DNA from: Melioribacteraceae bacterium
Lineage (GTDB): Bacteria; Bacteroidota; Ignavibacteria; Ignavibacteriales; Melioribacteraceae
Direction: 5' to 3'
Assembly (NCBI GenBank): GCA_026983795.1
Contig: JALSTI010000224.1
Coordinates: 1 to 40,554, forward strand
Length of the DNA stretch: 40,554 bases
Positions 24,693 to 27,906 of the stretch are shown here, one piece after another. The notes beneath the pieces are model-generated. The model was not told the DNA's origin, ran no database searches, and was given only the letters and a program-made list of their open reading frames with translations. The position numbers and the translations under genes were made by a program. Every line of letters begins with the position of its first letter. Within the stretch, counting starts at the first letter, position 1.

Positions 24693-25202
24693 ATGACATT
24701 TACAGATAAAAATATTCTAAAAAAATTAAAAGGAGTTCGACTTGTTATAACCGACGTTGACGGTGTTCTTACCGATGGCGGTTTGTATTATTCGGCTGAG
24801 GGTTTGGTTATGAAAAAGTTTAATGTAAAAGATGGAATGGGTACAAAACTTTTAAGTGATATAGGAATTGAAACAGGTATTATTACAACGGATGGCGAAA
24901 CTTCGGACTTAATAAAAAAACGTGCGGAAAGACTTAAGCTATCGTTTTTATATACGGGAATATGGGATAAAGAGATTAAGTTGAAAGAAATTTGCACCGA
25001 AAAAAAAATTTCACTTGAAAATGTTGCCTTTATTGGTGATGATGTAAATGACCTTTCTATTATAAATGATGTAGGTGTTTCTTTTGCGCCCAGCGATGCC
25101 GCTGCCGATGTTCGGGATGCAGTAGATGTAGTATTGAGCAAAAAAGGCGGAGAGGGAGCCTTTAGAGAACTTGCCGATTTAATTATAAAAGCCCAAATGT
25201 AG
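24693..25202 (+). CDS. KdsC-like HAD phosphatase (3-deoxy-D-manno-octulosonate 8-phosphate phosphatase family)
   Basis: 'VITDVDGVLTDGGLYYSAEG', 'GIITTDGETS', 'FIGDDVNDLSII'. Confidence 0.9.
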   Translation: MTFTDKNILKKLKGVRLVITDVDGVLTDGGLYYSAEGLVMKKFNVKDGMGTKLLSDIGIETGIITTDGETSDLIKKRAERLKLSFLYTGIWDKEIKLKEICTEKKISLENVAFIGDDVNDLSIINDVGVSFAPSDAAADVRDAVDVVLSKKGGEGAFRELADLIIKAQM

Positions 25203-25222
25203 GTTAACTTGCTAAATTGACC
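25202..25222. repeat. REP-like palindrome, type B variant (GGTTAACTTgctAAATTGACC)
   Basis: Same 21-nt layout as the 25700 copy (9-nt arms, 'gct' loop), with one mismatch and one G-T pair. Confidence 0.6.
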
Positions 25223-25287
25223 AGACATTATCTTGTTATAAATTAAAGTAAACGGTACAACTATAAAAATCAACCAATTTAAAATAT

Positions 25288-25308
25288 GGACAACTTGGCA
25301 AGTTGTCC
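25288..25308. repeat. REP-like palindrome, type A (GGACAACTTggcAAGTTGTCC)
   Basis: Perfect 9-bp arms, 3-nt loop. Identical copy at 26088. Confidence 0.92.
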
Positions 25309-25318
25309 TGTAAATATT

Positions 25319-26074
25319 ATGAAAACTTTTTATGAACGAAATCTTCCGCATTACACACCCGAAGGATATGTGTTTTTTGTTACTTCAAGATTAGCGGGTT
25401 CATTACCTAAAAGCGTGATTGAAAAATTGAAAAAAGAAAAACAGGAGAATGAAAAGCGTATCAGTGAGATTAAAAATCTAAAGGTTCGGAAAGAAGAATA
25501 TTACAAACAGCAGAAATTATATTTTTCTAAGTTTGATAATGCTTTAGATAGTTCTTCCCGAGGTCCTTATTGGTTAAAAAATGGAAGTGCTACTGAAATA
25601 ATAAGGGAAGCATTTCATTATAGAGATAAAAAAGTTTACCATTTATTTGCTTATACAATTATGCCTAACCATATCCATTTAGTGATTAAGCCTATTGTAG
25701 GTCAACATGCTATGTTGACCAAACAGAACGGTAATAAAACAAAACATAATTCCGGAAAATCAAACGGACAACTTGGAAAGTTGTCCTACAATTCTAATAA
25801 CAGACGGAATATAGGAAGGAAAAATCCTTCTCCTTATTTGCTGGGCGATATAATGGAATCATTGAAAGGATATACTGCATTTGAATGCAATAAAATACTT
25901 GATAGACAAGGACCATTTTGGCAGCATGAAAATTATGATCATGTTGTTAGGAATCAAGAAGAATTAGTAAGAATTATTAAATATATTGTGAATAATCCTG
26001 TTAAAGCAAAATTGTGTAAAACATCCGAAGACTGGAAATGGAATTATTATAATCCTGATTTAATTGGTTTATGA
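25319..26074 (+). CDS. REP-associated tyrosine transposase (RAYT, IS200-like Y1/HUH family)
   Basis: 'HYTPEGYVFFVTSRLAGSLP', HUH motif 'MPNHIHLVIKP', 'DIMESLKGYTAFECNKIL', 'FWQHENYDHVVRNQEELVRIIKYIVNNPVKAKL'. ORF call starts at 25286 inside a palindrome context; ATG 25319 is the likelier start. Confidence 0.9.
   Translation: MKTFYERNLPHYTPEGYVFFVTSRLAGSLPKSVIEKLKKEKQENEKRISEIKNLKVRKEEYYKQQKLYFSKFDNALDSSSRGPYWLKNGSATEIIREAFHYRDKKVYHLFAYTIMPNHIHLVIKPIVGQHAMLTKQNGNKTKHNSGKSNGQLGKLSYNSNNRRNIGRKNPSPYLLGDIMESLKGYTAFECNKILDRQGPFWQHENYDHVVRNQEELVRIIKYIVNNPVKAKLCKTSEDWKWNYYNPDLIGL
25700..25720. repeat. REP-like palindrome, type B (GGTCAACATgctATGTTGACC), inside RAYT ORF
   Basis: Perfect 9-bp arms. 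Translates in frame as part of 'VGQHAMLTK'. Confidence 0.9.
25766..25786. repeat. REP-like palindrome, type A (GGACAACTTggaAAGTTGTCC), inside RAYT ORF
   Basis: Differs from the 25288/26088 copies only in the loop (gga vs ggc). Translates as 'GQLGKLS'. Confidence 0.92.
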
Positions 26075-26087
26075 TAAATTGCGTTAT

Positions 26088-26108
26088 GGACAACTTGGCA
26101 AGTTGTCC
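26088..26108. repeat. REP-like palindrome, type A (GGACAACTTggcAAGTTGTCC)
   Basis: Identical to the 25288 copy, including flank 'tatggacaacttggcaagttgtcct'. Located 14 nt after the RAYT stop. Confidence 0.92.
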
Positions 26109-26134
26109 TACAAAATAATTATCCGTAGTTTTTC

Positions 26135-26186
26135 TTGCCTAATTCTATCCAAATCTTTATATTATAGTAAACAAATGTTTACTATA
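26135..26186 (+). promoter_or_regulatory. Putative sigma70-like promoter (TTGCCT-N17-TATATT) with 24-bp operator palindrome TATAGTAAACA-AA-TGTTTACTATA
   Basis: -35 at 26135-26140, -10 at 26158-26163, perfect 11-bp inverted repeat 26163-26186 over the expected start site, 25 nt before ATG 26212. Confidence 0.6.
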
Positions 26187-26211
26187 GTTGATCTATTTTT
26201 CTATACAAATT

Positions 26212-27906
26212 ATGAAGAAGGGTAAAAAAATAAGTCCGAATCCGGTTCTTCTTAATATGCATGAATATCGTCTTCCTAAAGATGAAAATCAACAAGCCCT
26301 AATTACAAAAATCCATACACCTATTCCCCGTAATAATGGAAGAGTGAAGTTTGATATTTACGATTATGGGATGCTCTTTAATGATGCGGCAACAAAAAAA
26401 ATAATTCGGGAGGGAAAAACTATCGGATGTTTTTACATAGAATCGCCGGGCATGCGTTCTTTACTTAAACGTTTATCGTGTGATACTTTTGAAATGCTGA
26501 CGGCAGCCAGTTCGGTTATTCGTCCCGGCGTTGCCGAAAGCGGAATGATGCAAGAATTTATTGCGCGCCATAAAGATCCCCGTCGAAGAAAATACTTGTT
26601 ACCGGAAATGGAGAAATATTTGGGCGAGACCTACGGCGTAATGATTTATCAAGAAGATGTAATTAAAATTGCACATCATGTTGCCGGACTTACGCTTGAA
26701 GAAGCAGATTTATTGCGGCGCGCAATGAGCGGTAAAATGCGCTCCCACGCTGCAATGCAACAATTATCCGATAAATTCTTTACCTCCTGCATTAACAAAG
26801 GGTTTTCAAAATATATAGCAAAAGAATTGTGGCGGCAGATTGAGTCATTTGCCGGATACGCATTTTGTAAAGCTCACAGCGCTTCTTTCGCGCTTCTCTC
26901 TTTTCAAGTCGCTTACCTTAAAGCTCATTACCCTGCACAGTTTATGGCAAGCGTGCTTAGTAACGGCGGCGGATATTATTCAGCTGCCGTATATATTCAA
27001 GAATGTAGACGTATGGGACTTAAATTACTTCTTCCGTCGGTTAATAAAAGTGTGTACGAATATAGAGGTTACGGAACTGCAGTCCGTATCGGATTGATGG
27101 CAGTAAAAAATCTTTCGCGTAAATCGATAAAAAAAATTATTGACGAACGGAAAAAAAACGGTCAATACACTTCGCTTGCAAATTTTTTAAGCAGAACAAA
27201 AATTGGATACGAAGAAACAGCAATATTAATAAAATGCGGAGCAATGGATTGTTTTAAGCAAACGCGCCCGACTTTAATGCGTTTGCTGGATGTTTATACT
27301 TATCAACGGAATATTGCGACTTCGTTGTGTAACGATTTGTTCGAAAAAAAATCATTGTATCTTGAACAAAAAGTTATAACCGGACGGCAATACAGTATTG
27401 AAGAAATTTGTGCTCTGGAACACAAAATACTGGGATATATGGTTTCAAGGCATCCTTTGGAATTTTTTGAGGAACTTGTTAATAACCATAGTGTTATAAA
27501 TGCGGAAGAAATGCATAAGTATGATAAACGTAAAATTACTATGGTAGGATGGTATATGACTTCCAAGCGAATTAAGACAAAAAAAGGGGAGATTATGAAA
27601 TTTCTTTCGCTCGAAGATTTAACCGGCACGTTTGAAGCGGTCATCTTTCCTGAAGTGTATGAAAAGTATGCGGGACTTACAACTTCGATGGGACCATATT
27701 TATTAGAAGGCGTGGTTGATGCGGCAAACGGGAACAACATAATTGTAAAAAAAATGAAAATCCTTTCCGGAGCAAATATAAAAACTGCATTGCAAAAAGA
27801 CAGTTCGGAAAATCAATATTACGGAGATGTTGAAAAAATAAGCGAGGAGGAATTTAGATTGGTTGATTCGCTCGGTAAGGAAAAATTGAGAAAAGCTTAT
27901 GTTTAA
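26212..27906 (+). CDS. DnaE2/ImuC-like DNA polymerase III alpha C-terminal protein lacking the PHP domain and most of the catalytic palm
   Basis: 'TIGCFYIESPGMRSLLKRL', 'AASSVIRPGVAESGMMQEFIARHKDP', 'YLGETYGVMIYQEDVIKIAHHVAGLTLEEADLLRRAMSGK', 'FAGYAFCKAHSASFALLSFQVAYLKAHYPAQF', C-terminal OB-like 'KKGEIMKFLSLEDLTGTFEAVIFPEVYEKY'. No PHP motifs and no PDIDLDF-type motif. Confidence 0.88.
   Translation: MKKGKKISPNPVLLNMHEYRLPKDENQQALITKIHTPIPRNNGRVKFDIYDYGMLFNDAATKKIIREGKTIGCFYIESPGMRSLLKRLSCDTFEMLTAASSVIRPGVAESGMMQEFIARHKDPRRRKYLLPEMEKYLGETYGVMIYQEDVIKIAHHVAGLTLEEADLLRRAMSGKMRSHAAMQQLSDKFFTSCINKGFSKYIAKELWRQIESFAGYAFCKAHSASFALLSFQVAYLKAHYPAQFMASVLSNGGGYYSAAVYIQECRRMGLKLLLPSVNKSVYEYRGYGTAVRIGLMAVKNLSRKSIKKIIDERKKNGQYTSLANFLSRTKIGYEETAILIKCGAMDCFKQTRPTLMRLLDVYTYQRNIATSLCNDLFEKKSLYLEQKVITGRQYSIEEICALEHKILGYMVSRHPLEFFEELVNNHSVINAEEMHKYDKRKITMVGWYMTSKRIKTKKGEIMKFLSLEDLTGTFEAVIFPEVYEKYAGLTTSMGPYLLEGVVDAANGNNIIVKKMKILSGANIKTALQKDSSENQYYGDVEKISEEEFRLVDSLGKEKLRKAYV

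Follow-up and report, generated by a model that had tools for sequence, protein, structure and literature searches.

RAYT-REP systems are thought to be domesticated relics of transposons, and the way in which their REPs spread is a standing question (PMC8266576). The described system closest to the locus reported here is TnpAREP subclass 2.4, of which in-frame REP insertions are a hallmark, and of this subclass only, according to the main text of Quentin et al. (2018, BMC Genomics 19:475; PMC6006769). The same text states that the REPs inside tnpAREP keep the reading frame, and that their usual place is a peripheral variable region between HuH and Y; it lists subclass 2.4 in parallel with group 4. 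This main text mentions neither a locus-by-locus match between REPs, nor copying of spacers, a fixed frame or a second in-frame loop, and it does not name the Ignavibacteria. Translated REPs have also been described elsewhere: intragenic GTAG/CGTC REPs are read in frame in various proteins, and the TAG of a REP can serve as the stop codon of flanking ORFs, but the main text of that study names DNA-repair and other genes and not RAYT genes (BMC Genomics 2013 14:522; PMC3733652). The palindromic elements of Rickettsia are likewise mobile units that sit in frame in many genes (reviewed in PMC10969869); however, they measure about 150 bp and belong to other families, whereas the host gene considered here is that of the element's own transposase.

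We analysed a stretch of 40,554 nt from a Melioribacteraceae bacterium (GCA_026983795.1, contig JALSTI010000224.1), called the window below; its genome is denoted G000 in comparisons, and Table 1 lists the features of its RAYT locus. The encoded protein barely exceeds the gathering cut-off of the Pfam Y1_Tnp model (PF01797; 23.1 bits, cut-off 23), and it matches the RAYT equivalog REP_Tyr_transpos of NCBIfam (NF047646) over residues 99-252 with E=4e-19 and 69 bits, under the curated cut-off of 80. Its sole PDB match by sequence (E=4e-7), and its sole fold match at E<=0.001 (E=3e-6), is Escherichia coli TnpAREP bound to a REP hairpin (4er8). The two proteins share the fold, and W94, Q95 and R104 of the GTAG-contacting stretch of the E. 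coli protein are conserved in the window protein (4er8 profile alignment: afWqhesyDhvvr / NIWQPRFWEHAIR); unlike the window protein, E. coli TnpAREP has 165 aa, lacks such a loop insertion and is associated with bulged REPs. FWQ and YIVNNP are both present, and their W, Q and Y are invariant in alignment A1. In an AlphaFold2 model built on the eight sequences of alignment A2, the core is ordered (mean pLDDT 72), and residues 129-171 form the only long stretch predicted to be disordered; it lies between the HUH strand (E117-124) and the next helix (H173-193). Since this loop, which covers most of the REPIN-encoded residues, is predicted to be disordered, the protein is likely to tolerate extra residues there.

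Table 1. Features of the RAYT locus, in window coordinates.
Feature	Position	Strand	Remark
Upstream REP-B with GTAG foot	25199..25222	+	pattern match
Upstream inverted REP-A, degenerate foot	25288..25308	-	forms an upstream REPIN-like pair with 25199-25222
RAYT / TnpAREP gene (Y1 HUH transposase), 251 aa from the conserved ATG	25319..26074	+	ORF open from an earlier ATG at 25286
HUH motif NHIH	25667..25678	+	histidines invariant in alignments A1 and A2
Internal REP-B with GTAG foot, in frame (V-G-Q-H-A-M-L-T)	25697..25720	+	24/24 nt identical in same-genus G006
Codons of the predicted disordered loop, pLDDT <50	25706..25834	+	residues 129-171 if the Lys codon at 25322 is number 1; AlphaFold2
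Spacer between the internal REPs, fast-evolving	25721..25765	+	64% nt identity to G006 over the 42 nt measured
Internal inverted REP-A with CTAC foot, in frame (G-Q-L-G-K-L-S-Y)	25766..25789	+	pattern match
Conserved W-Q pair	25919..25924	+	aligns with W94-Q95 of E. coli TnpAREP; role from PMC6006769
Y motif YIVNNP with the presumed catalytic tyrosine	25982..25999	+	Tyr invariant in A1 and A2
Downstream inverted REP-A with CTAC foot	26088..26111	-	pattern match

An earlier, sequence-only reading had reported five palindromes in and around this gene, and all of them are present (25202-25222, 25288-25308, 25700-25720, 25766-25786 and 26088-26108). Translation of the ORF also returns the peptides GQHAMLTK and GQLGKLS that it had read from the two internal ones. 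Over the whole window, there are 10 matches to the REP palindromes on both strands with at most 3 mismatches, against 0.06 expected from dinucleotide shuffles. REPINs are reportedly units of two inverted REPs with GTAG feet. While that reading placed the internal palindromes correctly, they are not two loose palindromes: because a GTAG foot (25697-25700) and a CTAC foot (25786-25789) are present, they make up a REPIN-like inverted pair, laid out as GTAG-REP-B ... REP-A-CTAC from 25697 to 25789, with a length of 93 nt, or exactly 31 codons. The unit has the layout of REPINs, but it lies within a RAYT gene; a text search of the REPIN paper (PLoS Genet. 2011 7:e1002132; PMC3116915) found no mention of REPs in RAYT genes or coding regions. 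Both the RNA and the DNA of 25690-25800 fold far better than shuffled sequences (z -4.5 and z -5.5, respectively). As for the palindrome at 25288, its 3' foot reads TGTA instead of CTAC, and although it falls inside the longest ORF (ATG 25286), it precedes the start at 25319 that is conserved among homologues; it most likely belongs to the 5' leader of the gene, as homologues align from ATG 25319 (M-K-T-F-Y).

The resemblance to subclass 2.4, as far as the main text of PMC6006769 describes it, extends to several levels. The window protein has the motifs NH[IFV]H, WQ and YIxNNP; the gene carries a variable insertion between beta3 and alphaC, here a linker of 16-94 aa across relatives; and the locus has GTAG-footed REPs both flanking the gene and in frame inside it. 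Less than 1 kb from the gene, GT[AG]G-footed REPs lie at 25199-25222 and 26088-26111, and the in-frame REPs within the gene are those of 25697-25789. Double-foot REPs, a further point shared with the subclass, occur in some of the relatives collected here (G017 and G169). The definition of the subclass also includes an insertion of 8 aa at the end of alphaB. Judged by its motifs, loop insertion and REP layout, the window locus is probably of the subclass-2.4 type.

The RAYT gene lies between a gene of the kdsC phosphatase family and a partial dnaE-like gene, and the kdsC-like gene ends in a TAG that belongs to the GTAG of the upstream REP (25199-25202). The same-genus genome G006 makes the same use of the REP foot as a stop codon (AAATGTAGGTCAAC). 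The dnaE-like ORF (26188-27906) aligns with DNA polymerase III alpha models in their C-terminal half alone, starting near position 560-590, and is therefore a dnaE or error-prone polymerase gene that is either partial or split. Ahead of this ORF, at about 26161-26188, lies another inverted repeat (ATTATAGTAAACAAATGTTTACTATAGT), which G006 retains and G008 retains in rough form. It looks like an operator of the LexA/SOS-box type, and the partial dnaE-like gene may be under its control. In G008, of the same genus, a B-type REP stands between the kdsC-like and dnaE-like genes and the RAYT gene is absent (L132, G008:C17, around 4033); elsewhere, this genome has no close relative of the window RAYT, only much weaker Y1 matches. 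Although it lacks a close RAYT, G008 holds several intact B-A REPINs. In the window's own genome, further A- and B-type REPs are few and decayed, and those examined are intergenic. The palindromes have further copies in the host genome and in both same-genus genomes (G006 and G008), contrary to what would have refuted the sequence-only reading.

We searched for relatives in 80 genomes of the family, 166 of the order and 398 of the phylum (overlapping sets), together with one GTDB contig scan, and collected about 55 RAYTs. Counted strictly, 21 genes of a 37-member RAYT clade carry a total of 29 GTAG/CTAC-footed palindromes in the ORF, compared with a mean of 0.4 in shuffled genes. All but one of these 29 fall within one and the same loop, the one that follows the HUH motif, and the GTAG foot is read as GTA-G in 15 out of 16 cases in the clade. 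The sequence-only reading had proposed that the segment should vary among homologues, and this is the case: the linker measures 16-30 aa without REPs (mostly 16 aa in the short outgroup clade and about 25-30 aa in most REP-free members) and 25-94 aa with REPs, the upper end being reached where several are stacked. Linkers are short or decayed in G086, G055 and G139, and internal REPs are absent or decayed in G044, G055, G047b, G139, G345 and most Bacteroidia rows. Parsimony on the tree yields 13 state changes for the internal REPs, at least 6 of them forced by well-supported branches. In two RAYT genes of Bacteroidia, G243 (L102) and G441 (L106), a footed REP is found in frame in an N-terminal helical loop instead, the frame of G441 being broken by a stop further downstream; given this other position, they count as independent insertions into the gene. 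Several REP-like palindromes make up the approximately 75-aa linker of the RAYT of G109 (L074), and a longer inverted repeat (GCGAGCAGGCCTGCC...GGCAGACAGGCTGCTCGC) is among them. The central proposal of the sequence-only reading, in-frame insertion of a B-A unit into the linker of the transposase itself, is supported by the variable linkers of homologues and the recurrence of the palindromes elsewhere; the segment is not an ancestral conserved domain.

The internal REPs resemble the REPs flanking their own locus. The mean similarity of internal cores to own-locus flanking REPs is 0.79, against 0.52 when loci are permuted (p=5e-5, with rows that are phylogenetically non-independent). This can be best seen in G064, which has two RAYT paralogues (a and b) whose protein cores are 69% identical. 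In each of them, the internal REPIN is nearly the same as the REPIN directly behind its own gene, spacer included (24/27 and 23/28 identical), whereas spacers compared across the paralogues share only 15-17 of 27-28 positions. Because even the spacer matches the REPIN behind the own gene, the match between internal and flanking units in G064 points to copying of units and not to convergence. The REPs of the two paralogues are identical at 50 of 51 positions, compared with 73% nucleotide identity in the gene core (p=4e-6). Furthermore, a tandem B-B arrangement is found both inside and behind the gene in G152, and the similarity between internal and flanking copies runs about 15 nt past the palindrome in G109. 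In G064a, G064b, G152 and G109, no more than about 1 kb separates the donor from the recipient, and the two share a strand. Between G000 and G006, the REP halves are identical at 47 of 49 positions and the spacer at 27 of 42 (p=1e-4). Purifying selection at the DNA level was considered for this pair, in view of the fully identical REP-B, and set aside: since other parts of the gene also contain identical runs, of 35 and 29 nt, and the synonymous counts are low, only the contrast between REPs and spacer is kept. We also considered the internal copy as the source of the dispersed G064 copies and found no support for it, as the spacers of the dispersed copies differ from the internal one.

In-frame REPs are not restricted to RAYT genes. 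In G064, the same B-REP is also translated in the same frame (VERKSSFAQ or variants) in unrelated proteins, some with C-terminal sorting-like domains, so the tolerance of in-frame REPs is not confined to RAYT. Five such loci (L114, L116, L121, L119 and L122) contain in-frame REP or REPIN units, with GTA as the first codon of the foot where it is intact, and in three of them the unit lies just 5' of the C-terminal sorting-like domain (NYPNPFNP ... VYDILG).

We suggest that REPINs are inserted and overwritten by the RAYT preferentially in cis, within a permissive loop, that the in-frame products survive, and that they have no dedicated role; we hold this to be the probable explanation, albeit by no means a certain one. 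The locus would then be a REPtron, composed of a subclass-2.4-type RAYT gene and its cognate REPs, with one REPIN inside the gene. This REPIN sits in the presumably disordered loop that links the HUH strand to the helix after it, and added in-frame codons would cost the protein little there. By acting on single-stranded REPs with a preference for nearby DNA, the RAYT might bring REPINs into the loop and keep overwriting internal and neighboring copies. Only insertions with an open, preferably hydrophilic frame would survive, and for this reason the coding sequence would be a by-product as well as a substrate-like site that is still, or was recently, active, without a dedicated role in control. 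This account builds on the observed REPIN-like structure, in-frame position, variable loop, turnover and copying between internal and flanking units, and on a loop whose disorder is predicted.

It would be tempting to regard the internal REPIN as favored by selection. The RAYT might limit its own expression by binding the hairpins of its mRNA or of its gene in single-stranded form, or the unit might act in cis in the spread of REPINs or be a master copy that is protected. There are several suggestive points. In the comparison of G000 with G006, the REP halves have been kept better than the spacer, a contrast that selection on the palindromes would explain as well; an internal pair is frequent in the clade (21/37 by the strict rule); the mRNA hairpins are strong; and internal REPs follow flanking REPs, as if one protein must recognize both. 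However, the copying of spacers accounts for this match without selection, many clade members, as listed above, lack internal REPs or have decayed ones, and REPs occur in the same frame in the unrelated sorting-domain-type proteins of G064. Synonymous conservation, taken alone, is also weak: 1 of 14 same-residue REP codons changed between G000 and G006, compared with 59 of 197 in the whole gene. We consider selection on the internal REPIN unlikely. It is rather unlikely, too, that selection maintains the coding-sequence REPIN as a working part, either as a protein-coding, self-linked substrate by which the RAYT senses or limits itself, or as a protected master copy that refreshes the flanking REPINs; if this were true, recombination could not separate the transposase from the element.

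Another mechanism that could lead to equal homogenization is host recombination or template switching between adjacent palindromes. General processes of this kind (RecA-independent recombination, or replication template switching at adjacent palindromes) would homogenize one ancient insertion and make RAYT activity unnecessary. With few exceptions, the insertions are in one loop and in one frame, as expected from a single old insertion, and because the rows compared are related, this pattern may in part reflect common descent; the short distance and common strand of donor and recipient in the four genes named above point in the same direction. In contrast, the in-frame REPs in a second RAYT loop and in unrelated genes indicate that new insertions do happen, and parsimony requires repeated state changes even where only well-supported branches are counted, so that we regard host processes on their own as quite improbable. 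An ancestral protein domain that is palindromic at the DNA level by accident, or plain chance, would have only the conserved position in the protein in its favor. The peptide differs between relatives and tracks the local REP sequence, which rules out an ancestral domain, and the shuffles leave neither chance nor low complexity as a source of the palindromes (0.06 expected in the window and 0.4 in the clade); we give these readings practically no credence.

In summary, in-frame REPs within the gene have already been published for subclass 2.4, and what is added here is their locus-by-locus homogenization, fixed reading frame and turnover. A coding loop that is rewritten by the gene's own REPs amounts to an alignable record of REP copying, in which frame, spacer and flanks reveal what moved where. 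The Ignavibacteria set, and above all the paralogues of G064, provides pairs for testing copying between known places.
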